The translations under genes were made by a program, and so were the position numbers. A stretch of DNA of 64,000 nt from Litoreibacter meonggei (lineage in GTDB: Bacteria; Pseudomonadota; Alphaproteobacteria; Rhodobacterales; Rhodobacteraceae): assembly GCF_003663885.1 (NCBI RefSeq), contig NZ_RCCE01000005.1:310001-374000 (forward strand), in the 5' to 3' direction. Below the pieces are notes generated by a model that did no database searches, was not told where the DNA came from, and saw nothing but the letters and a program-made list of their open reading frames with translations. Each line of letters begins with the position of its first letter. The stretch's first letter is position 1. Shown piece after piece: positions 10,054 to 63,332 of this stretch.

Positions 10054-11250
10054 ATGACACAGACCATTCTACGACTGAACCACAAGGGCGAAGGCGTGCC
10101 AGACGCGGGCGCCCCGATCCCGCGCGTGTTGCCGGATGAGGTGGTAGAGGACGGGCGCATCGTGACGCCTTCTGTTGCGCGGGTGGCGGCCCCTTGCCGA
10201 CATTTCAAAAGCTGCGGCGGCTGCGCGATGCAGCATGCCAGCGATGATTTCGTGGCGGAGTGGAAGACGGATGTGATCCGGCTGGGGCTTTCCGCCCGGG
10301 GGATCGAGACGGATATACGGCCTATTCTAACCTCGCCCGCGCAATCGCGTCGCCGTGCGACGTTGCACGGGCGGCGGACCAAGAAGGGCGCGATGGTCGG
10401 GTTTTTCGGGCGCGGCTCTGACGCGCTGATCGAGGTGCCGGATTGCAAGTTGCTGGACCCCGCTTTGATTGCGGCGTTTCCAGTTTTGGAAGAACTGACC
10501 GTCGCTGCGGCTTCGCGGAAAAGCACTGTCGGGCTGGTCGTGACCTTGTCGGAAGGGGGTCTGGATGTGGATATCCGTGACGCCAAGCCGTTGGAGCCGC
10601 AGGGCATTCTGGAAATGGCAGCCTTGGCGGAGCGGCACAAACTGGCACGGCTGAGTTGGGACGGGGAAGCCGTGGCGACCCGCGAACCACCGATGCAGAG
10701 TTTCGGCAAAGGCAAGGTCGCGCCGCCGCCCGGTGCGTTTTTGCAAGCGACAGCGCATGGGCAGGCGGCGTTGTTGGCCTGCGTTCAGGAGGCCTTGGGG
10801 GATGCCAAACAGGTCGTGGATCTGTTCGCGGGTTGCGGCACGTTTACCCTGCCTGCCGCCGAAAAGGCAGAGGTCTGGGCGCTGGAAGGCGAGGCCGCGC
10901 TGATTGACGCTTTGGATGCTGGATGGCGCAAGGCCGTGGGGTTGAAGAAAGTGAAGTCCGAGACGCGCGACCTGTTCCGCCGCCCCGTATTGCCGCAGGA
11001 ATTGCGCAAGACGGATGCAGTGATCATTGACCCGCCGCGTGCGGGGGCGGAGGCGCAAACGATCGAATTGGCGCAGAGCAGTGTGAAACGGATTGCAGCG
11101 GTGTCGTGCAACCCGATCTCGTTCGCGCGGGACGCGGAAATCCTGATCGCAGGCGGATATCACCTTGATTGGGTGCAACCGGTGGACCAATTCCGCTGGT
11201 CCTCGCATGTGGAACTTGCGGCGCAGTTCAGCAAACCCCATATGGGCTGA
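10054..11250 (+). CDS. Class I SAM-dependent RNA m5U methyltransferase (TrmA/RlmD-like, Fe-S)
   Basis: A 398-residue RNA methyltransferase of the TrmA/RumA family, which makes 5-methyluridine in 23S rRNA or tRNA. An iron-sulfur cluster motif is visible near residue 50 (CRHFKSCGGC), the SAM site is VDLFAGCGTFTLP, IIDPPRAG is the DPPR motif, and the catalytic cysteine sits in VSCNP. The N-terminal TRAM domain of the E. coli enzymes is reduced to a short segment. It probably modifies 23S rRNA (RlmD role), but sequence alone does not separate this from RlmC or TrmA activity. Confidence 0.88.
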   Translation: MTQTILRLNHKGEGVPDAGAPIPRVLPDEVVEDGRIVTPSVARVAAPCRHFKSCGGCAMQHASDDFVAEWKTDVIRLGLSARGIETDIRPILTSPAQSRRRATLHGRRTKKGAMVGFFGRGSDALIEVPDCKLLDPALIAAFPVLEELTVAAASRKSTVGLVVTLSEGGLDVDIRDAKPLEPQGILEMAALAERHKLARLSWDGEAVATREPPMQSFGKGKVAPPPGAFLQATAHGQAALLACVQEALGDAKQVVDLFAGCGTFTLPAAEKAEVWALEGEAALIDALDAGWRKAVGLKKVKSETRDLFRRPVLPQELRKTDAVIIDPPRAGAEAQTIELAQSSVKRIAAVSCNPISFARDAEILIAGGYHLDWVQPVDQFRWSSHVELAAQFSKPHMG

Positions 11251-11271
11251 AACCCATAGACCGGAGCCTTC

Positions 11272-12045
11272 ATGTCCCTGCGCGCCCGCACGCAAGCCAT
11301 CCTTGACCGCCCACTGACCAGAAACTTCATTCTGGGCGTGATCCTGTTCAACGCGATCATTCTAGGGCTGGAAACGGTGGAGCCTGTGATGGCTGTCGCA
11401 GGACCGTTGATCTTGGCGTTGGACATGATCTGCCTTGCGGTTTTCGTGGTGGAGATTGCCGCCAAGCTGTTCGCACAACGGGGGCAATTCTTCCGCAAAG
11501 GCTGGAACCTGTTCGACTTCGTGATCGTCGGGATCGCGCTGGTCCCCGGCTCCGGCGCGTTCTCTGTGCTGCGGGCGTTGCGCGTGTTGCGGCTGTTGCG
11601 GGTGCTGTCGGTCGCCCCCTCCATGCGCCGCGTGGTCGAAGGGCTGGTGACCGCCCTGCCCGGCATGGCGTCGGTCTTCTTGCTGATGGCGTTGCTGTTC
11701 TATATCGGCGCGGTGGTCTCGACCAAGCTGTTCGGCGCGGCCTTCCCCGACTGGTTCGGGACGCTGGGCCTGTCGGGCTACACGCTGTTCCAGATCATGA
11801 CGCTGGAGAGCTGGTCCATGGGCATCGTGCGCCCCGTCATGGAGGTCTACCCCTACGCGTGGGTGTTCTTCTTGCCGTTCATTCTGGTGACGACATTTGC
11901 GGTCGTGAACCTGTTGGTGGGCCTGATCGTAAACTCGATGCAGAACGCCCATTCGGAGGAAGAGCACGCCGCGACGGACAGCTATCGCGACGACGTCATG
12001 GCACGGTTGAACGAAATCGAACGGCTCATCAAAGCCCGCAACTAA
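11272..12045 (+). CDS. Voltage-gated sodium channel, NaChBac/NavAb type
   Basis: A 257-residue single-domain channel subunit with six membrane segments that should assemble as a tetramer. The voltage sensor S4 carries regularly spaced arginines at about residues 101, 104, 107 and 110 ([13 protein letters not shown]). The selectivity filter is TLESWSM at about 177-183, the sequence known from the NavAb channel. A short C-terminal coiled tail follows S6. It is the last gene of the + strand run; its stop overlaps that of the convergent dxs by four bases. Bacterial Nav channels are linked to motility, chemotaxis and pH homeostasis; the role here is not shown. Confidence 0.92.
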
Positions 12046-52335: not shown

Positions 52336-52806
52336 ATGAGGGTCACGATCTGCGTAATTGGCCGCCTGCGGGCGGGGCCAGAGCTTGATCTCATCAAGGA
52401 CTACCTTCAGCGATTTGACCGCACGGGCCGCAACCTAGGGTTGGGGCCTGCACAGATCATCGAACTGGAGGACAAGAAAGGCGGCGGCTCGGCTGCCGAA
52501 GCCGTCCTGCTGGAACGCGCAATTCCCAAAGGGGCCACGATCTGCACCATGGACGAGCGCGGCAAGGTCATGACCTCCCCCGACTTTGCCAACATGCTCG
52601 GGGGCTGGCGTGATCAGGGCGTGGGCGATCTGGCCTTCGTCATTGGTGGCGCGGACGGGCTGACCAAAGAGCTGCGCGCGCAGGCCGACACATCGCTGTC
52701 ATTTGGGAGAATGGTCTGGCCACATATGCTGGCGCGCGTGATGCTGACCGAGCAGCTTTATCGCGCTGCGTCCATCCTGTCCGGATCACCCTACCACCGC
52801 GCCTGA
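52336..52806 (+). CDS. rlmH: 23S rRNA (pseudouridine-1915) N3-methyltransferase
   Basis: A 156-residue SPOUT-fold methyltransferase that modifies helix 69 of 23S rRNA. The SAM knot is visible in DLAFVIGGADGL and the C-terminal SFGRMVWPHMLARVMLTEQLYRA. The ATG at 52336 is 11 bases after the rsfS stop; a longer frame is not supported. rsfS-rlmH is a conserved pair. Confidence 0.95.
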   Translation: MRVTICVIGRLRAGPELDLIKDYLQRFDRTGRNLGLGPAQIIELEDKKGGGSAAEAVLLERAIPKGATICTMDERGKVMTSPDFANMLGGWRDQGVGDLAFVIGGADGLTKELRAQADTSLSFGRMVWPHMLARVMLTEQLYRAASILSGSPYHRA

Positions 52807-52893: not shown

Positions 52894-53154
52894 ATGGACA
52901 GCTTTTCCGCATTCCCAACGACCCCGATCTCCCCCGCTCGTTCGGCCAGTACAGTGGTGCCAAACGATACCCGTGATCTACCCCATATCAGCCGCGCGCT
53001 TTATGTCGGGCAAACCGGTGCCTTGTCAGTCGAGATGGCAGATGGGGACGTGGTGACGTTTGAGGGCGTGCCCGCGGGCAGCATGTTGCCGATCCGCGCG
53101 TCTAAAGTCAGGGCAACCGGTACGACTGCCGCCGCGGTTCTATCGCTTTGGTAA
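52894..53154 (+). CDS. GTA/phage spike-base protein family (Rcc01079-like)
   Basis: An 86-residue protein with the pattern of the Rcc01079 family, head-spike base of the Rhodobacter capsulatus gene transfer agent: a short N-terminal tail, TRDLPHISRALYVGQTGALSVEMADGDVVTFEGVPAGSMLPIR, and ATGTTAAAVLSLW at the end. It has no signal peptide. In this window it is separated from any other GTA structural gene; it follows rlmH by 87 bases and is convergent with polysaccharide genes. Assignment is by remembered family pattern and needs a search. Confidence 0.75.
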   Translation: MDSFSAFPTTPISPARSASTVVPNDTRDLPHISRALYVGQTGALSVEMADGDVVTFEGVPAGSMLPIRASKVRATGTTAAAVLSLW

Positions 53155-53158
53155 GGCT

Positions 53159-54388
53159 CTAAAGCCTCTCATCCATCGCACGCCACTGGTGACCGGGCGC
53201 TACCAGCGTCTGGTCACCGGACCGCTTTCGCAATGCCACCTCGCTGATCACACGAGCCAATGCGTCAGTATAGTCGCGCAAACGGTCTTCCCCAACCAAC
53301 CTGGCGATCTTTGTCTGATGCGTCAGGGCTTTGCGGTTTCTGAACCCACTTAGAACAGACTGCACCAGCGCTTCTTGACCAGACGCGCGGCAATCGACGG
53401 TTGCGTCATAGCCAAGCGACCCGAACAGCCCCGCGAATTTCCCGCTATATGCCAACGGCACGACCGGCACATCCGAAGAGAACGCGGCGATGCAGGCATG
53501 CATCCGCGCACCTACGAAGAAATCCAAACCAGCGATATGCGCCTTTGCCATGCCGGGTGACTTGAACGCAGGGGCGACTGTTACATCCGGAAACTCTTTT
53601 TGCAGGCTCAATGCTGCGGCGTAGTCATCCTCTAACGGGGCCTGCGGGCAGATGACATGAGGCACCAATACGACGTCAGGGCGTTCGGGCAAGGCCAATA
53701 GCTGACCAATCAAGTCGCGCATCGTTGCAGGGTAATCCGCCAAGAGCTGGAATTGGTTACGGCCCGTGTAGCCACCCGCCATCAACAGGCCCGAGACGTT
53801 CAACCCGATGGCAGGTCGACCCCGTGTGGGACTGACACCCTCAGGCGGGAGACGCAAAGCAACGTCGCTTGCAGTAACCACAGGCCGCGTCACACCCAAC
53901 GCACGAAGCGCGGCTGTGGAATGCTCATCCCGCGTGGCCACAAGTAGCGCACGTCGAATCAGGTCACGCGCGAACGGACGGGAGAGCCATGAGGTGAACG
54001 GGCCGAAGGTTTGCGGTGCCAACACCACCGGGCAGCGCGACATATGTACGAGATATTTCAAATATATCATACGGCTAAGGCGCTTTGGCCCATAAATGTC
54101 CGAAAAGCTGTCACCGGCCCCGATATCAAGCATCACGTCGCATTGCCGAAACATCGCCATGACCTGTCGGGGGTCTTTCATAATCTCGCCCGTTAGATGC
54201 CGGATCGTAATATCGGGGCCTTCGACGTAAGTGGGCCGCTGGCCGACCCAATCGAATAACGTCACCGAAATCTCGACACCCGTGGCGCGCGAAATACTGC
54301 GCAGAATATCGATTTGCCCGACAGTCAACGCACCTACCCCAAGGTTATCAGAGTGTGAGGAATGGAAGAGTAGCCCGACAGTCAGCAT
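53159..54388 (-). CDS. Polysaccharide pyruvyl transferase family protein
   Basis: A 409-residue transferase (CsaB/PssM type) that adds ketal-linked pyruvate from phosphoenolpyruvate to sugars of exopolysaccharide or capsule. N-terminal NLGVGALTVGQ, central DIGAGDSFSDIYG, and C-terminal FVGARMHACIAAFSSDVPVVPLAYSGKF, the last being the family signature. Overlaps the FrhB-like gene upstream by seven bases, so it is second in the pair; its stop is near that of the convergent spike-base gene. Confidence 0.9.
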   Translation of the reverse strand: MLTVGLLFHSSHSDNLGVGALTVGQIDILRSISRATGVEISVTLFDWVGQRPTYVEGPDITIRHLTGEIMKDPRQVMAMFRQCDVMLDIGAGDSFSDIYGPKRLSRMIYLKYLVHMSRCPVVLAPQTFGPFTSWLSRPFARDLIRRALLVATRDEHSTAALRALGVTRPVVTASDVALRLPPEGVSPTRGRPAIGLNVSGLLMAGGYTGRNQFQLLADYPATMRDLIGQLLALPERPDVVLVPHVICPQAPLEDDYAAALSLQKEFPDVTVAPAFKSPGMAKAHIAGLDFFVGARMHACIAAFSSDVPVVPLAYSGKFAGLFGSLGYDATVDCRASGQEALVQSVLSGFRNRKALTHQTKIARLVGEDRLRDYTDALARVISEVALRKRSGDQTLVAPGHQWRAMDERL

Positions 54389-55608
54389 GGGCCTTCTTCC
54401 TTAACTGGCCGTTGAGACGCACGGCGGATCATCCCCCCGAAGTTGCGGACAATGTCTGATACCGAAGCGCGGCGGGCCATCGTCCAGAGCCCCATGCCAC
54501 GATAGCGCGGGAATGGACGGCCCATAAGCCAAAGCGCAGCTAAGCGTGCCAGCAGGACACGCCTGCGCCGCGTCTGGCCGGGCTGAACGTCGGCAAGTGC
54601 GGTTAAGTCGTAGGGGGACAGATCAAGATGTCCCGATAGTTGCGCTGCCTTTACTCGTGAATGCCCCTCTTGGGTACGACACAGCACGAGGCTTTGTCCG
54701 GGCTGGTCGTCGAAGCTGGGATAGCCATGGGCGTCTGATTGCCACGCATCTGCGAACACAACATCTGCAAAAACACCGCTGCCGTCTGCGCAGAGCTTGC
54801 ACCGGTGCTGCACTCTTTTGGAAAGAGTTGCGCCCCAACTTTCTTCATAACTGATGCTGCGCTGCGTTCCGTCCTTCAGCGTTGCAGTTGCACGACCCGG
54901 CCAACCTTCGGCACGGTGCTGGAATTGCGCCACATCTGAGGGCTTCACGCTCATGTGGCGAAGGATGTCTTGGCCGCCCTGAACAGACGGAACCCCAGCG
55001 CAGAAGAAAGACACTAATATAGGCACCATCCGCGCGATTTCGACATCCTCTTGGCGCAGGGCATAAAGCGCCGACACGTCACACGGCTTGCCAACGAATG
55101 CGAAGCGGCGCGCACCACCACGTAGACTGTCGAGGATATCCAACGGGCTCGACGGTGCGTAACGTGACCCCGCCGCCCCGCGTATGTCACGGATGCTTGT
55201 TGAAACCGTGGTTACATTTGCCAGCGGATTTAACGGGTCGGCGGTCACATGGATCACCCCATCGACTTGCTGGGATTTAATCAGCGATATCAGAAAACCG
55301 GACAAAGCGCCGCCTGATGCTGCCCGATGGCGCAAAGCCTTATTGTTGGAAAATCCGATCTCGGCGGAAACATATGGCCCCCAGATTGGATCCAATTTGC
55401 GCCCGCGTCGCAGGCTTTCCTGTCCCACGCTCGGGCAGATACGCGATAGCTTGAACTGCTCTGACGGATGCAATTCGCGGGAAAATCGTGGGCGCAAGAA
55501 GCCGTCTTTGTCGGTTTCCATGCGGGCAGCAGAAGGGGCAACCGCCGCGCAGCCGCCGCAACCTGCGCAGAGGCCTTCGGCCAAGATCTTTGAAATATCG
55601 TGGGGCAA
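54382..55608 (-). CDS. Coenzyme F420 hydrogenase/dehydrogenase beta-subunit-like (FrhB) protein
   Basis: A 408-residue protein with an N-terminal cysteine-rich motif LCAGCGGCAAVAP and the FrhB C-terminal domain (KRVQHRCKLCADGSGVFADVVFADAW). In polysaccharide loci this family is paired with pyruvyl transferases and its reaction is unknown; the organism is not expected to make F420. The typical [4Fe-4S] fourth cysteine is replaced (AVAP rather than AVCP), so the cluster may be incomplete. It is directly upstream of the pyruvyl transferase with a seven-base overlap. Confidence 0.85.
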   Translation of the reverse strand: MPHDISKILAEGLCAGCGGCAAVAPSAARMETDKDGFLRPRFSRELHPSEQFKLSRICPSVGQESLRRGRKLDPIWGPYVSAEIGFSNNKALRHRAASGGALSGFLISLIKSQQVDGVIHVTADPLNPLANVTTVSTSIRDIRGAAGSRYAPSSPLDILDSLRGGARRFAFVGKPCDVSALYALRQEDVEIARMVPILVSFFCAGVPSVQGGQDILRHMSVKPSDVAQFQHRAEGWPGRATATLKDGTQRSISYEESWGATLSKRVQHRCKLCADGSGVFADVVFADAWQSDAHGYPSFDDQPGQSLVLCRTQEGHSRVKAAQLSGHLDLSPYDLTALADVQPGQTRRRRVLLARLAALWLMGRPFPRYRGMGLWTMARRASVSDIVRNFGGMIRRASQRPVKEEGPC

Positions 55609-55701
55609 GTCGGGCCAGCTTTCGTGATTTCAGAAACGCATTTACCACTCGTTAAACACCACAGTGGTTAATGGGCCGTAAACTTAAACTGGAGCGCCCA
55701 C

Positions 55702-57009
55702 TTGATCCGCATCACAACCTTGCTGTCAGGCCATGGTCTCGCAGCGCTTTCGACTTTGGCGCGCAATCTTGTGCTGGCGCGCATTTTGGGACCACAGGAC
55801 TATGGCGTGGCAGTGGCATTGGTTGTTGTCATTGCTGCGGCGGAGCTGACGACGACTTTAGGCCTGCCTCAACAGATTGTTAGCCACAAACATGGCGCAG
55901 GCCGCCAATTTCAAGCGACACTTCACACCGTGCAGATCGCAAGAGGATTACTGGGCGCTGGCATCATATTGCTGACTGCAACTCCGCTTGCCAACGTGCT
56001 GGGTGCACCCGATGCGGCCCCGATACTAAGAACCGCGGCCTTGGTCCCAACTATTTTAGGCTTTATCCATCTCGATCCGTTCCGCGCACAACGCCATCGG
56101 CGTCATCTGCCGCAAATCTTAGTACTTGCCGTTCCTCCGATGGTTTGTGTCTTAGCAATTTGGCCAATGTCAGGATGGCAAGACGGACCTAGCCTCATGC
56201 TGGACCTGCTACTGGTACAGGCATTTATGAGCGTCGCAATCTCACATTTGATTGCCGTGCGACCCTATCGTCTGAAGTTCCACATGAGCCAGATTCAGCA
56301 AGTCTTGCGATATGGTCTTCCGCTCGCCGCCAATGGCATCCTCATGTTCGCGGTTCTCCACGCCGAAAAACTGATCGCCGGGGCCGGATTGGGGTTGGTT
56401 GAAATGGGCGTGCTGGCCATGGGCTTCACGCTAACGCTGACCCCCGCGTTAATCATGGCGCGCAGCTTTCAGGCTTTTTACCTGCCCAAGCTGCGCAATG
56501 AGCGCGAGCAGGTCTTGGGGTTGGCGATGATGCTGGGCGCGTCACTTTCCGTAGTGTTGACCACGCTGGTGCCCTTATGTCTTCCCGTCTTGGGGGCGGG
56601 CTTTGGCGGGTTGGCAGAGCTCATCCCCATTCTAAGTTGCCTTGCCGCGCTGCGCCTGCCTAAATCCGCATTGGCGACCGTAGCACTTGCCGAAGGGTGC
56701 ACCAATTTGCCGGCTGTTGCGAACCTTCCCAGAGTGCTGGGCACCCCGTTAGTCTGGCTAGCCCTTGGTTGGGGTGGCGATGTCAAAACTTTATTGGTCA
56801 TCGCGACAACGGCCGAAGTCGCAGGGGTAGGACTGGGCATCTTGATCTCCCGCACCAAGCAACTTCCAGTTCGGGCAACCGCAATCGCCGCGCTTGTTGG
56901 TGTGCTTGTCTTGTCTGGACAGCATGGGTTAGCGATCTTCGCATGTGGCATAGGATGGATGCTATATGCGTTCAGTCCGACCCCGTTTCTAACGCGTCGC
57001 ACCACATGA
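55702..57009 (+). CDS. Oligosaccharide flippase (Wzx/MATE type)
   Basis: A 435-residue membrane protein with about 12 hydrophobic segments, family of polysaccharide-repeat flippases. N-terminal part LARNLVLARILGPQDYGVAVALVVV is typical of Wzx-like proteins. TTG start at 55702, with GGAG seven bases upstream. The stop overlaps the sulfotransferase start (ATGA). Codon use looks less GC-rich than in the housekeeping genes, as is common for polysaccharide loci. Confidence 0.87.
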   Translation: MIRITTLLSGHGLAALSTLARNLVLARILGPQDYGVAVALVVVIAAAELTTTLGLPQQIVSHKHGAGRQFQATLHTVQIARGLLGAGIILLTATPLANVLGAPDAAPILRTAALVPTILGFIHLDPFRAQRHRRHLPQILVLAVPPMVCVLAIWPMSGWQDGPSLMLDLLLVQAFMSVAISHLIAVRPYRLKFHMSQIQQVLRYGLPLAANGILMFAVLHAEKLIAGAGLGLVEMGVLAMGFTLTLTPALIMARSFQAFYLPKLRNEREQVLGLAMMLGASLSVVLTTLVPLCLPVLGAGFGGLAELIPILSCLAALRLPKSALATVALAEGCTNLPAVANLPRVLGTPLVWLALGWGGDVKTLLVIATTAEVAGVGLGILISRTKQLPVRATAIAALVGVLVLSGQHGLAIFACGIGWMLYAFSPTPFLTRRTT

Positions 57010-57905
57010 CGTTGGCAATCCATATCGGCTATCACAAAACTGCCACGACGTGGTTGCAACAACGTGTCTTTGTGCCGGAGATGGGTTTCGCCCCTTTGCT
57101 GGATCACAGTGAGGTCGATCGTCTGATTATCCGGCCGCATGATCTGGATTTCGAACCTGAACCGGCGCGTCAGGTGCTTACGGACCGACGGAAGGACGCA
57201 CCTTCTACTGCCTGTGCTGTCGTGTCTTCGGAAAACTTGTCCGGACATCCGTTTTATGGCGGACGCCAAAGCGCAGCACTTGCACGGCGACTACAAAGCG
57301 TGGCCCCCGACGCGCACATTATTGTCACCGTTAGATCGCAGGAAACCATGCTGCCCTCGGTCTATCTGCAATACTTGCAACGCGGTGGTACATTGAGTCA
57401 TCAGGAATTTTTCGCTGGCGCTAGGGGATATGGATATCCGGCATTTGAGCTGGAGCATTTCTGCTATGATCGTCTGGTTTCGCTTTATCAGTGCCTGTTC
57501 GATTTCGTTCACGTTATAACGTATGAACAGTTGGCCAATGCACCGAACCAAGCGTTTTTGGATCTAGCCAAATCACTCGATCATCCGATACCGGCAATTT
57601 CGAAAACTGGGGCGAAGCGGGTTTCCGCATCGTTGCCGCAAGCAGTTGTGCCGCTGCTGCGTAGGGTTAACCAAACCCGCAAGTCTACGTTGAATCCAGC
57701 CCCCGCGGTTGCTCTATCGCGGGAGCCGGGCTGGATGTATCGCGCTCTGACTGCGAGCGCGAAGCTGCGTGTGGCAAAGCCGCTGTTGAAAGCCCGCCCC
57801 ATCGATGCCTACGTGAGTGAATGTTTCAAGAGCGCATTCACCGACAGTAACCAACGGTTGGGCCAAATTACGGGCGGGCATTTGGATCTGTCGGCATACC
57901 CCTAG
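57006..57905 (+). CDS. Sulfotransferase family protein
   Basis: A 299-residue PAPS-dependent sulfotransferase. The 5'-phosphosulfate-binding loop is HIGYHKTATTWLQQ near the N-terminus, and IIVTVRSQETMLPS supplies the 3'-phosphate-binding Arg and Ser. Frame extends far upstream but the ATG at 57006 overlaps the flippase stop and starts the conserved part. Suggests the exported polysaccharide is sulfated. The stop overlaps the convergent 743-residue gene by four bases. Confidence 0.85.
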   Translation: MTLAIHIGYHKTATTWLQQRVFVPEMGFAPLLDHSEVDRLIIRPHDLDFEPEPARQVLTDRRKDAPSTACAVVSSENLSGHPFYGGRQSAALARRLQSVAPDAHIIVTVRSQETMLPSVYLQYLQRGGTLSHQEFFAGARGYGYPAFELEHFCYDRLVSLYQCLFDFVHVITYEQLANAPNQAFLDLAKSLDHPIPAISKTGAKRVSASLPQAVVPLLRRVNQTRKSTLNPAPAVALSREPGWMYRALTASAKLRVAKPLLKARPIDAYVSECFKSAFTDSNQRLGQITGGHLDLSAYP

Positions 57906-60133
57906 GTCGCGTCAGCGCCGAGTTTCCACGGATCGGCATTCACCATAGCGGACGGGCCACCCAAAGACTTATATGCCCCACCAGCGGGATCGCTGCTGTC
58001 ACTGTTGGCACTTTTCCAAACGGTGAGTTGGTGGATCGTGCCTTCGACCTGATAAGATCCGCTAGCCGTCGCCAAGAGCAGTAAAATCCGGTTAGTCGGT
58101 AGTAAGCCGGAACCAGGAATAAATACCTCGCTCATCACTTGAACCCCATCCAGCCATATCCGCACAAAACCTGCACTCATGTCGACTGACAGCACAATAC
58201 GGGACCGCACAAGGTCGGTCATAACCCCCGATGCTGTTTGCACGTTGTTAACCTTCACCGCCCCGTCAGCGTCCCGGACACGAACGCGCAGACTACCGCT
58301 GGGGAGAACCTCTAGCTTCAAGTAGTTTCCTGTCGTCGTCATCAAAGTACGAGACCCCGAGGATGGCACAATCATCGCTACATCCAAAGCCAGCTGAATG
58401 CTGCTGACACCCGGCCCGAGCGTGACCGTATCCCTGAAATGAGGTCCGGACGGGCCAGCAACAAAGCTGGGCGCCGACGCGACCAGTGTGTTGGCCAAGA
58501 CGGTAGCGGATGGAAGTGGGCGCACGCCGATGCCATCAATCCGCTCCGCACCTACATCCACGATGGGCCAGTTCTTGTAGGTCTGGGCGTAAAGGTCTTC
58601 AGGGAATTTCACAGCGCCGGTCGCGCCACCTTCGCCAAAACTGATAACATCGGTTGCGCCAAACAACCCTGTTTCCGCGAAAATGCGCACGCGACCTTGG
58701 ACAAGCTCGGCCCGCGAGGCGGGTACTCCGTTGATCTGCCAACCAAACACATCGGTCCAATGCTCAAAACCCACCCCCAAGGCTGTTTCATTGCGTGCCT
58801 CGCGTAACGTGGTGATAGGCCCGGCGCTGGACCACACCTCGACATAAGAGCCGGACGGCTCCCATATGCACATGTCAAACTCTGGAATACTCCAACCGGT
58901 TAGCCCGCTGGATTGCAGGATTGCGTGAGCTGTCAGTCTTGAATACATCGCTGCCCCGTCGTCGTGATCGCCAGCAGGGTGGCTTTGATCGATCCAACCG
59001 CCTGATCCATCAGCCTCCCCGTTGCGGTAGGCCAACGGCTCCAGCCCAGATGGTAGGAACCAAGTCCCAGCATGCACATTGCCGACCATATTGCGCCACG
59101 CCACCCGCGCGTCTTGCTTGTTGCTAAGATTTTCCTGCATGGCACCCAACGCCGTAACGGTCGCGTTTTGCATGTCTTCGGTAATGTCGAAGCGGTGCGG
59201 TCCGAACGGCACCCAGCGCGTGTGGGCAGGATCGTAAAGTTCGCCAAACCAATGATCCGCGGTGTAGCTGCCACTTGCGCCGTAGCTGATCTGTGCCGGG
59301 AATCCGATCGGGCTGCCGTTCAACAGCTTGCCAGTGAACAGTGGAAATAACGCATCGTCATAGTTTTCTGCCAGCGCACCGGCGGAGGCGAACCACGACA
59401 CCACCGGGAGGCCGACATGCTGACCATCGGCTGTCGCAAACGCATGCAGAGCCGCATCGTCTAGCCAGCTTCGGCCTGTGTTGCTGTCATCCACCAGCTC
59501 TCGGAAACCTGTTCCAGAAACCGCATGAAACACGATGGCAACCTTGTCATCGGGGCGCTCTGCCAGAAACACATTTGCCATTGCCGCAAGCGCGGCTGTG
59601 TGCGGGTCATCATCGGTGAGGTGCTTAATGACAGGAGCGCCGTCCATCCAGATGGTCTGCATCATGTCGTCAGCCAAAAGCTGCTCGGGCGGAATTTTAT
59701 CATGAGCCAAAGAGCGGATACGCACCACCTCAGACTGTCCCCAAAGCGCCACCACATGGCCCACACCGAAACGATTGGCACCAAGGGCGCGGGTGACCGG
59801 CTCAGATTTGATGCGCACCTCCGGTCTGATCCAGTTTGCGCGACGTGAATGGCTGGCGGTGGCCCGCCAGTTGCCACCTGTTGGAATATCCGCAACATCT
59901 GCCCAGTTGGTGGCGGTGCCATCCTCACACAGGAACCTTAATTGCACGGTTTCGCCTTCGGTACCCGATCCACTTAGAGGAATTTCCGCAGTATCACGCC
60001 CGAACGCTGCGCCGCTGTCAAACAAGGTCCGGTCGCGCGAAAACGGGTTGAGCGTGATATGTGTCAGCGCAACAAACGGGGTGGCGTCCGGTACCTTTAG
60101 TTGCCTCACAGTCAGTCCAAGAAGTATCGTCAT
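57902..60133 (-). CDS. Large SGNH-esterase-like/LamG-like protein, possible spike or fibre
   Basis: A 743-residue protein of unknown role. An N-terminal beta-rich part (1-120) is followed by an SGNH-hydrolase domain: nucleophile Ser134 in LWGQSEV, and Asp382/His385 in WIDQSHPAGDHDDG. The C-terminal part (about 560-720) reads as a LamG/concanavalin-like sandwich (LRVRVRDADGAVKVNN, FVRIWLDGVQVMSEVF). There is no signal peptide or membrane segment, unlike a secreted enzyme, which fits a virion- or GTA-type structural protein that binds and deacetylates polysaccharide. It sits inside a polysaccharide locus, 5 kb from the spike-base homologue. Function is inference. Confidence 0.65.
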   Translation of the reverse strand: MTILLGLTVRQLKVPDATPFVALTHITLNPFSRDRTLFDSGAAFGRDTAEIPLSGSGTEGETVQLRFLCEDGTATNWADVADIPTGGNWRATASHSRRANWIRPEVRIKSEPVTRALGANRFGVGHVVALWGQSEVVRIRSLAHDKIPPEQLLADDMMQTIWMDGAPVIKHLTDDDPHTAALAAMANVFLAERPDDKVAIVFHAVSGTGFRELVDDSNTGRSWLDDAALHAFATADGQHVGLPVVSWFASAGALAENYDDALFPLFTGKLLNGSPIGFPAQISYGASGSYTADHWFGELYDPAHTRWVPFGPHRFDITEDMQNATVTALGAMQENLSNKQDARVAWRNMVGNVHAGTWFLPSGLEPLAYRNGEADGSGGWIDQSHPAGDHDDGAAMYSRLTAHAILQSSGLTGWSIPEFDMCIWEPSGSYVEVWSSAGPITTLREARNETALGVGFEHWTDVFGWQINGVPASRAELVQGRVRIFAETGLFGATDVISFGEGGATGAVKFPEDLYAQTYKNWPIVDVGAERIDGIGVRPLPSATVLANTLVASAPSFVAGPSGPHFRDTVTLGPGVSSIQLALDVAMIVPSSGSRTLMTTTGNYLKLEVLPSGSLRVRVRDADGAVKVNNVQTASGVMTDLVRSRIVLSVDMSAGFVRIWLDGVQVMSEVFIPGSGLLPTNRILLLLATASGSYQVEGTIHQLTVWKSANSDSSDPAGGAYKSLGGPSAMVNADPWKLGADAT

Positions 60134-60325: not shown

Positions 60326-60901
60326 CTAGGTAAGGCCAGCCTGCGCCAGTCGTGCTTCACGGGTGTCCGCGTCGTTCAGTCGCCCGAAGAGGCCAGTTGC
60401 GATATCTTGTCTGATAACTCGAGCAGGATTTCCGGCAACCAGACAATGTGCCGGCACATCCTTTGTCACAATCGCACCCGCCGCAACGATTGACCCGTCG
60501 CCAACTCTGATACCGGGCAACACCACCGACCGCGCGCCGATAAAGCAATTTCGTCCGACCCAAGTGTGCAGATAAAGACCTCGTGTTCGGTCGTGGGTTA
60601 GGATGCAAGCCTCGAACGCGACGTAACTTGTCTCACCGATGTGAACTCCGATGGGAAAGGTTCGGTCCAGCCGCGCGGATAAGGAAAACTCCGCGCTTGG
60701 ATGAATATTCATGCCGAACAGGTGTGTGTACATCATCCGCTTGATACCAACCAGCGCGGAACGAAGAAGCCGAAGCCTGTTCAGACCCCGTCGCTTTGCT
60801 TTTTCAGGCAAGGCGCTCGAGATCTGAACCGAGTTTTCCAAGGCTGCGCCTGCGCTTTGGCAGGGCCGGACTGGGGACTCGTCGCATATGAGGTCGTCCA
60901 T
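60326..60901 (-). CDS. Left-handed beta-helix acyltransferase (WcaF/LbetaH type)
   Basis: A 191-residue hexapeptide-repeat acetyltransferase. The repeats are visible in [74 protein letters not shown]. Acetylates a sugar of the polysaccharide. The ATG at 60901 with GGAGAG upstream is preferred to one 21 bases earlier. Divergent from the ligase/polymerase gene. Confidence 0.88.
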
Positions 60902-61077
60902 GCGATATTTCTCTCCATCCACGCAATTGCCCCTTTATTGGGGCGGGGTCTCAAGGACCTGCAATCATTTAGCTAAAACTCTATGAATCTTTGGTTAATT
61001 CGTGATGAAGAAACACGTTAACCAGTCGTTATCCAATCCGACGCATCCTGTGCCTGTCCTACAAAAGTAAGCCGCAC

Positions 61078-62376
61078 ATGCCACGTCGAAGCCTCGCACG
61101 TCCCGACAACAAACTGTCCCCTCTTGTGGTCCTCTATATCGTGGCGGTTGCACTACCGGTGCGCTATTCTATCGGGTCGCTACAAATGACTGGCTTGCGT
61201 ACATTTCTGGCGCTCGTGTTTATCCCATTACTACTAGGCTACTGCCGAAACCGCCCAACGAAAGGCCTGTCCACCGATATTCTGTTCATGCTGTTCGCTT
61301 GCTGGGCAATGGTGGCCTTCGCCCAAACTTCCCCGGCTCATGTAGTCGAAAACAGCGGCGCACTAGTGTTGGAACTGTTGGGCGGCTTTCTGATTGCACG
61401 TAACTTCGTACGCAGCGCCCACCAATTCCGCGCGACGATCAAGGTGATCCTAATAACAGTTCTGCTGTCCCTACCGCTGGCTTTGGTCGAGAGCATCACA
61501 GGGCATCCGCCGCTGATCATGCTGGTAGATTCAATACCAGGTCTTACCTCTGTCGTGCCCATTTCAATCGAGCCACGATTAGGCCTAGAGCGTGCACAGG
61601 TCCTGTTCGCGCATCCCATCCACTACGGGTTGTTCACTTCCACGCTGACATCGCTGGTATTTGTCGGGATGGTCGGTTCTTGGTCATTATGGACTCGAAC
61701 CTTCGGATTGGGCGTCGCGATATTCGCCAGCTTCCTTGCCCTTTCAAGTGGCGCATTTCTGTCGGTGCTGCTGCAGGTGTTCCTAATCATCTGGGCGCTC
61801 GTCTTTCCACTGAGGCGTAAGCGCTGGCTTCTACTGGCGGCTCTTTGTGTTCTCGCTTACGTCACTGTGGATTTGATTTCCAACAGGACGCCCGTGCGGG
61901 TCTTCTTCAGCTACGCCACCTTTTCAGCCCACAATGCCTATTGGCGCGGAATCATATTCGAGTGGGGTATGCTTAATGTCTGGCAAAACCCGTTATTTGG
62001 GATCGGATTAAACGACTGGAGTCGGCCGGATTTCATGCGATCCGACAGCATGGACAATTTCTGGTTAGTTCTCGCAGTCAGGTACGGGGTGCCGGGGTTT
62101 GTGTTGTTCGCCTGCGCCTATATTTTCGGCCTTTTTAGGGTCGCATACGCAGCCTTGCCAGCAGAGTTTCAGGCCATTCGGCTAGCTTGGGTGGTCTGCT
62201 TCATAGGCCTGACCTTTACGCTCTGTACCGTTCATATCTGGACGTCGATCTATTCCTTCGTGTTCTTCTTGTTCGGGGCGGGATTATGGTTGCTGGATCC
62301 GGTCACAACATCTGGAAAGGCGCGACCCAAGCGCGCTACACCCCTATTCACCCGCTTTGCATCGGCACCCGTATGA
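61078..62376 (+). CDS. O-antigen ligase/polymerase (Wzy/WaaL-like) family protein
   Basis: A 432-residue inner-membrane protein with about 11 hydrophobic segments and a long extracytoplasmic loop between segments in the second half (WRGIIFEWGMLNVWQNPLFGIGLNDW, typical of O-antigen ligase/polymerase proteins). Polymerises or ligates the repeat units. The stop overlaps the GT2 start (ATGA), making an operon. Confidence 0.85.
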   Translation: MPRRSLARPDNKLSPLVVLYIVAVALPVRYSIGSLQMTGLRTFLALVFIPLLLGYCRNRPTKGLSTDILFMLFACWAMVAFAQTSPAHVVENSGALVLELLGGFLIARNFVRSAHQFRATIKVILITVLLSLPLALVESITGHPPLIMLVDSIPGLTSVVPISIEPRLGLERAQVLFAHPIHYGLFTSTLTSLVFVGMVGSWSLWTRTFGLGVAIFASFLALSSGAFLSVLLQVFLIIWALVFPLRRKRWLLLAALCVLAYVTVDLISNRTPVRVFFSYATFSAHNAYWRGIIFEWGMLNVWQNPLFGIGLNDWSRPDFMRSDSMDNFWLVLAVRYGVPGFVLFACAYIFGLFRVAYAALPAEFQAIRLAWVVCFIGLTFTLCTVHIWTSIYSFVFFLFGAGLWLLDPVTTSGKARPKRATPLFTRFASAPV

Positions 62377-63332
62377 CCGCCGTCATGGGATGCATAATCG
62401 TCACCTACAACTCGGCCGGCTATATCCTCGATTGCCTTCAAAGCCTTGCTGAAGCGAACGGCGTGGCACTGAAGTTAGTTCTTGTGGACAATGCATCATG
62501 CGATGCCACGGTGCGGGTAATCGAAGAATGGACCTCACGGAATAATCTTGAGCTTTCTCTCATCCAAACATCGAAAAACGTAGGCTTCGCGGCCGGGGTG
62601 AATTTGGGCCTAACGCAGCTGCTTAAGGATCCAACTTTAGACAGGTTCTGGATACTCAACCCCGATTGTACCGTACCGCCACGTACCCCTGCCGCGTTGG
62701 CCTCCAAGCCGCTTCCATTCGCGTTATTGGGTGGTCGAATTGTGTACCAAAAGCCCATGTCACAGATTCAAATAGACGGGGGTCGGGTCAACTCGTGGAC
62801 AGGGGCGACCCAAAACATCAATATCGGGAAAAATCCGGCGACTACCCCGCTGCCAGACACGGCAGCCCTCGACTTCATTTCTGGTGCCAGCATGGTAGCG
62901 TCGCGTGAGTTCGTGCAGCAGGCAGGCCTCATGCCGGAGCAGTATTTCCTGTATTACGAGGAGGTCGATTGGGCCCAAAAACGTGGGGAGCTCCCGCTGA
63001 CCATTTGTGAGGACGCAACTGTTTACCACAGTGCGGGTGCTTCTATCGGTTCGCCAACGCTTAGCCGCGGACCGTCTCCTGTTTCCGCATATTTCAAACA
63101 CCGCGCGCGGATGATGTTTATGGCCAAACACCACCCCTTGCGACTGCCGGTTGCGTATCTTTTCGGATGGGGAAAAGTACTTCAACACGCTCTACGCAGC
63201 CAAATCGCACCCATTCCAGCCATACTAAGAGCCTTGCACGGACTCCCAGCAAGCAGGAAGATCAGCGCGGCGGTTGGGTCTGGAGGTCACGCCGCGACGA
63301 AGCTCTTGATCCGATGGACTAGGCGGTCGTAA
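62373..63332 (+). CDS. Glycosyltransferase family 2 protein
   Basis: A 319-residue GT-A transferase of the rhamnosyltransferase-like branch: CIIVTYNSAGYILDCLQSL at the N-terminus, VDNASCDATV, NVGFAAGVNLGL, and the metal site NPDCTV; acceptor region FLYYEEVDWAQK. The upstream frame from 62187 is unsupported; the ATG at 62373 overlaps the previous stop. The C-terminal end overlaps the convergent gene by 46 bases. Confidence 0.9.
   Translation: MTAVMGCIIVTYNSAGYILDCLQSLAEANGVALKLVLVDNASCDATVRVIEEWTSRNNLELSLIQTSKNVGFAAGVNLGLTQLLKDPTLDRFWILNPDCTVPPRTPAALASKPLPFALLGGRIVYQKPMSQIQIDGGRVNSWTGATQNINIGKNPATTPLPDTAALDFISGASMVASREFVQQAGLMPEQYFLYYEEVDWAQKRGELPLTICEDATVYHSAGASIGSPTLSRGPSPVSAYFKHRARMMFMAKHHPLRLPVAYLFGWGKVLQHALRSQIAPIPAILRALHGLPASRKISAAVGSGGHAATKLLIRWTRRS

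Follow-up and report, generated by a model that had tools for sequence, protein, structure and literature searches.

The window analysed here is a stretch of 64,000 nucleotides from Litoreibacter meonggei (contig NZ_RCCE01000005.1, positions 310,001 to 374,000 of the forward strand), and all window coordinates below refer to it. There are two genes of interest in the window: one encodes a head-spike base of the type known from the gene transfer agent (GTA) of Rhodobacter capsulatus (RcGTA), and the other encodes a 743 residue protein that is very probably the fibre of this base. Both lie among genes for the synthesis of a polysaccharide, and the genome has one match to the base and one match to the fibre.

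The head-spike base and its probable fibre

The base gene (52894 to 53154, forward strand) encodes 86 residues. The NCBIfam profile NF048002 ('spike base protein, RCAP_Rcc01079 family') aligns to the product over its full length (profile 1 to 85 of 85; E 3.2e-30), with a score of 104.2 bits where the cut-off is 28. There is a match to PHROG 12296 ('tail fiber protein') at E 9.9e-25 and, among PDB sequences, the solved RcGTA head-spike base 6tb9 is similar at E 1.7e-8. An earlier note, made from the sequence alone, had called this protein Rcc01079-like. The family search bears this out and, as judged by these alignments, the product is an Rcc01079 homologue. The family is present in 18 of 21 Litoreibacter genomes, including that of the window.

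The 743 residue protein is encoded on the reverse strand (57902 to 60133). Sequence searches of this protein, a kind of check that the earlier note had proposed, gave no significant match (none in Pfam or NCBIfam at E up to 1, a single chance-level match in PHROG at E 0.079 and none among PDB sequences at E up to 10). Its identity as a spike fibre rests on other evidence, namely the predicted fold, the base partner and an N-terminal motif.

Fold matches were obtained with Foldseek and structural comparison (Z scores), using an AlphaFold single-chain model (mean predicted local distance difference test score (pLDDT) 84.2; predicted template modelling score 0.68). Residues 26 to 544 (58502 to 60058) form an N-terminal beta region and a predicted esterase domain like those of the CE20 family and sialate O-acetylesterase (SIAE). 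They align with XAC1771 (7kmm) over 395 residues (E 6e-13, Z 19.7), with FI8 (9h4u; Z 18.2), with a CE20 enzyme (Z 17.3) and with SIAE (8f9o; Z about 16), and the tailspike of the cyanopodophage Pan3 (9vyh) aligns to residues 46 to 550 (Z 15.8). LamG and pentraxin domains match residues 553 to 743 (57905 to 58477) with Z scores that reach 18.7 over 180 residues, suggesting a lectin domain of this type. Across 35 aligned fibre sequences, G132-Q-S-E135 (S134 lies in WGQSE), D382 and H385 are invariant. A profile of the 35 fibres was also searched against PDB sequences for proof of an esterase at the sequence level, but gave one chance-level match only (E 0.73) and the esterase assignment therefore rests on the fold comparison. 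The predicted likeness to XAC1771, FI8 and SIAE extends over about 390 to 420 residues at 8 to 14% identity; it is a likeness of fold and we do not claim family membership. In contrast with these enzymes, the fibre has in addition a virion-type N-terminal anchor and the LamG domain. The SGNH/LamG description given in the earlier note thus holds for the predicted fold and finds no match among sequence profiles, and the lack of a signal peptide that it reported holds in so far as no typical one is seen, judged by eye only.

Residues 1 to 9 (MTILLGLTV; 60107 to 60133) are the proposed anchor. In RcGTA, residues 2 to 10 of the fibre Rcc01080 (IALGLGLGL) make a five-point star inside the base pentamer (PMC7296036). 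With start codons chosen within our analysis, residues 5 to 9 read L-G-[LV]-x-[LVMI] in 15 of 15 Litoreibacter fibres. The pattern LG[LVI][GASTP][LVMI] occurs within the first 12 residues of 22 of 1180 called proteins, some of them counted twice as loci L160 to L171 are from the same genomes as the G-numbered ones. Twenty of the 22 are fibres or genes that neighbour a base and the other two are a single gene met in two loci. The same enzyme body begins with MIGVGIGVG (L282) or MIGISLG (L227) in other genera, where the fibre gene directly follows a base gene in the same direction; both N-termini closely resemble the IALGLGLGL of Rcc01080. Genes straight after a base across 60 further genera often begin with MLGLSMGM, MSGIGLGLGLG or similar. 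A looser alternating motif is carried by 12 of 26 genes directly after a base compared with 71 of 1202 others (p 2e-8), and by none of 13 genes facing a base (some of these 13 are not fibres). Among IMG/VR contigs there is one fibre homologue, located in a phage tail module; its N-terminus differs and its body is similar from about residue 22 onward, which fits a swappable anchor. No base was found in the 9 kb examined of that 39.9 kb contig.

The polysaccharide locus and its relatives

In the window, 4.75 kb separate the base gene from the fibre gene, and this interval is occupied by polysaccharide genes. These encode a polysaccharide pyruvyl transferase (PvyT; 53159 to 54388, reverse strand; PF04230, E 5.3e-26), an FrhB/FdhB-like protein adjoining it (54382 to 55608, reverse strand; PF04432, E 7.5e-29; PF04422, E 3e-14), a Wzx-type flippase (55702 to 57009, forward strand; PF13440, E 4e-29) and a putative sulfotransferase (57006 to 57905, forward strand). 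A hexapeptide O-acetyltransferase gene (60326 to 60922, reverse strand; PF14602, E 2e-12) is located 192 bp upstream of the fibre gene and shares its direction. It is followed by genes for a Wzy/O-antigen ligase-type protein (61126 to 62376, forward strand; PF04932, E 3.7e-11) and a GT2 glycosyltransferase (62382 to 63332, forward strand, start chosen here; PF00535, E 1.2e-13 for the longer open reading frame 62187 to 63332). On the far side of the base, rlmH (52336 to 52806, forward strand; NF000988, E 5e-76) is, by synteny, the left chromosomal neighbour in part of the genus and lies outside the system. The polysaccharide locus that the earlier note placed beside the base is borne out by the pyruvyl transferase, FrhB-like, Wzx, acetyltransferase, Wzy and GT2 matches. 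Pyruvylation and acetylation of the product, which it had also proposed, are supported by the respective transferases, and sulfation only weakly. The putative sulfotransferase is named from synteny and PF13469, but the window protein (E 0.008) and all four orthologues scanned (E 1e-4 to 2.4e-3) fall below the Pfam cut-off; its GYHKTATTWLQ is P-loop-like by eye.

A scan of named genomes found the fibre homologue in 36 loci. In L172 and L175 the contig stops just past the fibre gene, leaving 34 testable loci, and the base gene faces the fibre in 33 of them. The exception, L190, is a 1432 residue protein amid prophage tail genes. The gap is within about 0.2 kb in 21 of the 33 (Defluviimonas, Albidovulum, Frigidibacter and other Rhodobacteraceae or metagenome-assembled genomes); the remaining 12 are Litoreibacter loci with gaps of 3.8 to 4.8 kb and polysaccharide genes in between. 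The pyruvyl transferase and flippase lie between base and fibre in all matching Litoreibacter loci mapped, and L278, from another genus, also has a flippase-like gene between the facing fibre and base. Genes in the relatives' loci were called with a simple home-made caller whose errors fall mostly in GC-rich loci (the L282 fibre, for example, was missed); with it, the FrhB-like gene was called in 12 of 15 Litoreibacter fibre loci, window included, and the putative sulfotransferase in 6 of 15. Each of the 15 Litoreibacter fibre loci has the acetyltransferase adjoining the fibre, and 16 of 24 loci from other genera also contain it. A stand-alone GDSL hydrolase (L186, 9116 to 9814; one member was scanned in Pfam) lies between acetyltransferase and fibre in 15 of these 24 loci and was not seen there in Litoreibacter.

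The 743 residue protein might instead be an enzyme of the cell that modifies the coat by deacetylating its polysaccharide, its link with the base being incidental. The CE20-like fold, the adjoining acetyltransferase and the retention of the gene where the GTA core has been lost are all in keeping with this. However, a cellular enzyme would not readily account for a base partner in 33 of 34 loci, for an anchor motif that is common to base-adjacent genes with unrelated bodies, for homologues in phage tail modules or for the lack of a typical signal peptide, and we regard this explanation as very unlikely.

Other base-adjacent genes carry esterases as well. Of 26 genes that come straight after a base and share its direction, we scanned 24 in Pfam (all except those of L259 and L260). 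SASA is above cut-off in two (L266, 10110 to 11444; L284, 10196 to 11656), GDSL is below cut-off in two (L240 and L233), three have LamG and one has a carbohydrate-binding module below cut-off, while 15 of the 24 have no match to an esterase, LamG or carbohydrate-binding module. L227, among the 24, carries the window-type module, as does L282 from outside this set. Also outside the set, L072 (G021) has GDSL above cut-off (10263 to 11801). This suggests that esterases, as recognized in these sequences, may have been recruited repeatedly to spikes, on different bodies.

The linkage with polysaccharide genes was then compared across genera, using polysaccharide profiles built from related spike loci found here. 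The 60 base loci, from 60 of 139 base-positive genomes, were the best-scoring matches away from contig ends and not a random draw; 55 of the 60 genomes have a GTA capsid. Stretches of up to 20 kb were used, seven of the 60 being shorter than 20 kb. The controls were 20 stretches of the same contigs at hand-picked, non-random offsets. At least three polysaccharide-gene hits were found in 21 of 60 base loci versus 0 of 20 controls (p 0.001), and at least two in 24 of 60 versus 1 of 20. In the 20 genomes with a paired control, the figures for at least three hits are 7 versus 0 (p 0.008). L232 and L255 are the same records as L178 and L194, which were used for profile building, and without both the count is 19 of 58. 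Representative neighbours are Bac_transf, Wzz, a ParA-like ATPase, GT2, GT4, acyltransferase genes and Wzy homologues. Neither of the outcomes named in the earlier note as speaking against its reading was found, as the base matches its family and some of the relatives have the orthologues close to polysaccharide genes. The particle-receptor gene pair that it described within such a locus occurs in Litoreibacter and in other genera, although base and fibre are not adjacent in the window.

Polysaccharide genes might also have inserted near the spike pair by chance and been carried along with no functional coupling. The nested Litoreibacter genes could be a single old insertion, joint swapping was not seen and 31 of the 60 base loci from other genera have no polysaccharide-gene hit by these profiles. 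Chance insertion fits poorly, however, with the enrichment across genera, with the gene between fibre and base in L278 and with R. capsulatus, in which capsule genes adjoin the head-spike genes and are co-regulated with them (PMC10218006), and we give it little credence. In published work, spike genes sit apart from the GTA cluster (PMC6209664) and 59 gene families, several of them biofilm-related, covary with GTA genes (PMC10883770).

The GTA cluster, phage relatives and evolution of the pair

There is an RcGTA-type cluster on another contig of the window's genome. All 10 of the proteins scanned from it gave matches to the families that such a cluster should have (terminase, portal, protease, capsid, connector, tail tube, DUF2460, hub, the GTA_TIM megatron and DUF2793). 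The capsid matches Rcc01687 at E 9e-180, and the genome has one capsid match and one megatron match. Over 394 genomes of the family, the base occurs in 123 of 314 that have a GTA capsid; of the 80 that lack the capsid, 16 have a base (odds ratio 2.6, p 0.0015; tallied from match listings and recounted by script).

The capsid is missing in 6 of 21 Litoreibacter genomes (G002, G003, G007, G016, G018 and the incomplete G011). In three of these species, the GTA cluster has collapsed to one open frame (G016, L305, 6759 to 9158; G018, L306, 7330 to 9831; G002, L307, 6921 to 9425), in which terminase residues 1 to about 183 are fused to megatron residues 656 to 1317, followed by DUF2793. The junction is identical in all three, with a pairwise identity of 60 to 73% and a ratio of non-synonymous to synonymous differences (pN/pS) of 0.25 to 0.37. 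The fusion is either one old event or the result of repeated in-frame deletions at one site. The terminase part has kept Walker A and B. In G007 the sole megatron match is 53 residues long, and at its spike locus (L069, 9736 to 10419) the fibre is cut to 227 residues and the base and intervening polysaccharide genes are gone.

Another explanation is that the pair serves a prophage or an infecting phage, not a GTA, and is a moron within the polysaccharide locus. Phages and prophage-like regions do contain bases and the esterase body, both genes persist in two species that lack the GTA core, and the base is found in the capsid-less family genomes counted above. Against this, the annotated neighbours of the window pair are polysaccharide genes and not phage genes, the locus is syntenic in 15 genomes of the genus (the annotation of the relatives' neighbours being partial) and under purifying selection, and the base is enriched where a GTA capsid is present. 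We therefore consider service to a phage unlikely. A phage origin of the window pair was considered and rejected, with no fibre match in 50,697 phage records. A prophage-like tail region (L076, 1598 to 10996; G030 contig 5) has further relatives of the esterase and LamG parts of the fibre.

The earlier note had also suggested that the spike pair and the polysaccharide change in step, and this was not borne out. Mean pairwise identity in the genus is 0.757 for rsfS, 0.730 for rlmH, 0.693 for the base, 0.688 for the acetyltransferase, 0.650 for the fibre, 0.560 for Wzy, 0.552 for PvyT, 0.539 for FrhB and 0.437 for Wzx. Fibre and base thus evolve more slowly than PvyT, FrhB, Wzx and Wzy, but not more slowly than the acetyltransferase, and there is no swap of the fibre or the polysaccharide genes across 15 syntenic Litoreibacter loci. 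Base and fibre are under purifying selection (pN/pS 0.09 to 0.36 in the pairs compared) and, of the parts of the fibre, it is the esterase region that shows the lowest pN/pS in 10 of 12 pairs, with a tie in one. The spike pair is conserved and not fast-changing. A comparison of 15 gene pairs across 14 genomes shows that the fibre, base and polysaccharide genes have correlated pairwise distances, also when rlmH is corrected for (permutation p up to 0.012). We set this aside as support for coevolution, because rlmH is short and a poor species clock and common descent alone would yield covariation. Selection independent of the GTA, as might be read from the G018-G015 pair (pN/pS 0.13 for the fibre and 0.11 for the base), was likewise set aside because G015 still has a GTA and the ratios therefore do not demonstrate selection after GTA loss.

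A proposed role for the spike

Taken together, the data show that the head-spike pair, whose fibre is probably an esterase, is real, conserved and nested in a polysaccharide locus. We think it probable that the two proteins are the head spike of the resident RcGTA-type GTA, with an esterase-lectin fibre that grips and trims the cell's own polysaccharide coat. Five base copies would form a pentamer at a capsid vertex, into which a single fibre would thread its alternating hydrophobic N-terminus, as in RcGTA. The LamG lectin would most likely grip the product of the surrounding genes, an acetylated and pyruvylated polysaccharide, and the esterase would remove O-acetyl groups which the neighbouring acetyltransferase added. 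A particle of this kind could thereby hold the coat of its own species and move through it.

Several findings weigh against this proposal. Base and fibre are both still open in G016 and G018, where the GTA core is gone, so that an exclusive GTA role is unproven. Of the other genomes without a GTA capsid, G002 retains the base only, G003 retains the base with a fibre short by about 36 residues, and G007 gave no base match and has kept just the first third of the fibre. G014 has a base of 44% identity amid other polysaccharide genes, and its only fibre match is weak (25%), within a 1453 residue protein about 10 kb from the base. G004 has a GTA, yet neither base nor fibre was found. Across the family the base occurs in 16 of the 80 capsid-less genomes, and there are base genes in 87 GenBank phage records. 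Base and fibre do not share a transcription unit in the window. A regulatory link was sought and rejected: the regions upstream of the base, fibre, acetyltransferase and GTA terminase genes share no convincing word, and a full CtrA-like site was not found in them. Eight loci from other genera have the fibre and no acetyltransferase, so the adding and removing of acetyl groups is not a universal pairing. The fibres of the Defluviimonas group bear only the looser anchor motif (MISLSSLSV). The window fibre has no Pfam match to GDSL or, at E up to 1, to SASA. Finally, pLDDT is below 50 at residues 1 to 13 (the anchor) and 370 to 389 (the loop with D382 and H385), and because of the latter the catalytic site S134/D382/H385 stays putative.

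The closest known system is the RcGTA spike, Rcc01079/Rcc01080, which is alike in base family, alternating hydrophobic anchor, neighbouring polysaccharide genes and a GTA core elsewhere (PMC7296036, PMC10218006). Rcc01080, however, is 325 residues long and is predicted to be beta-rich and lectin-like in shape, whereas the Litoreibacter fibre has 743 residues with a predicted esterase fold and LamG. Unlike the RcGTA spike genes, the Litoreibacter base and fibre genes face each other across a set of polysaccharide genes. The RcGTA tailspike TspA is also a GTA surface protein; it degrades biofilm polysaccharide and raises gene transfer, but sits loosely on the baseplate, in contrast with an enzyme fold on a head-spike fibre (PMC13420450). 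The words SGNH and esterase are absent from the main text of that paper. Pan3 provides a phage spike whose structure aligns to the fibre, although it is named a tailspike and not a head spike. We found no account of an SGNH-type head spike in a phage; subscription papers were mostly outside this search and prior notice is possible. As far as we searched, the enzyme-like fibre, its nesting in a coat locus and the breadth of the linkage are new, and a spike beside capsule genes has already been published for R. capsulatus. The present data extend that adjacency in a single species to a pattern in about a third of 60 other genera sampled.

The data suggest that some GTA head spikes are enzymes and not passive lectins. 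More tentatively, and with somewhat less confidence than the role proposed above, the head spikes of Rhodobacteraceae GTAs may form an adaptor system. A conserved base would take any fibre with a star peptide, and exchangeable enzymes and lectins (CE20-like, SASA, GDSL, LamG), often kept within the synthesis locus of the host's coat, would be matched to that coat. The particle would thus carry a password-like enzyme for its own kind, and, in lineages that lost the GTA core, the spike may have been retained for another use. A spike enzyme in the coat locus would give a testable answer to how GTAs confine DNA delivery to kin, in that the same few genes would set both what a cell wears and what its particles hold and trim.

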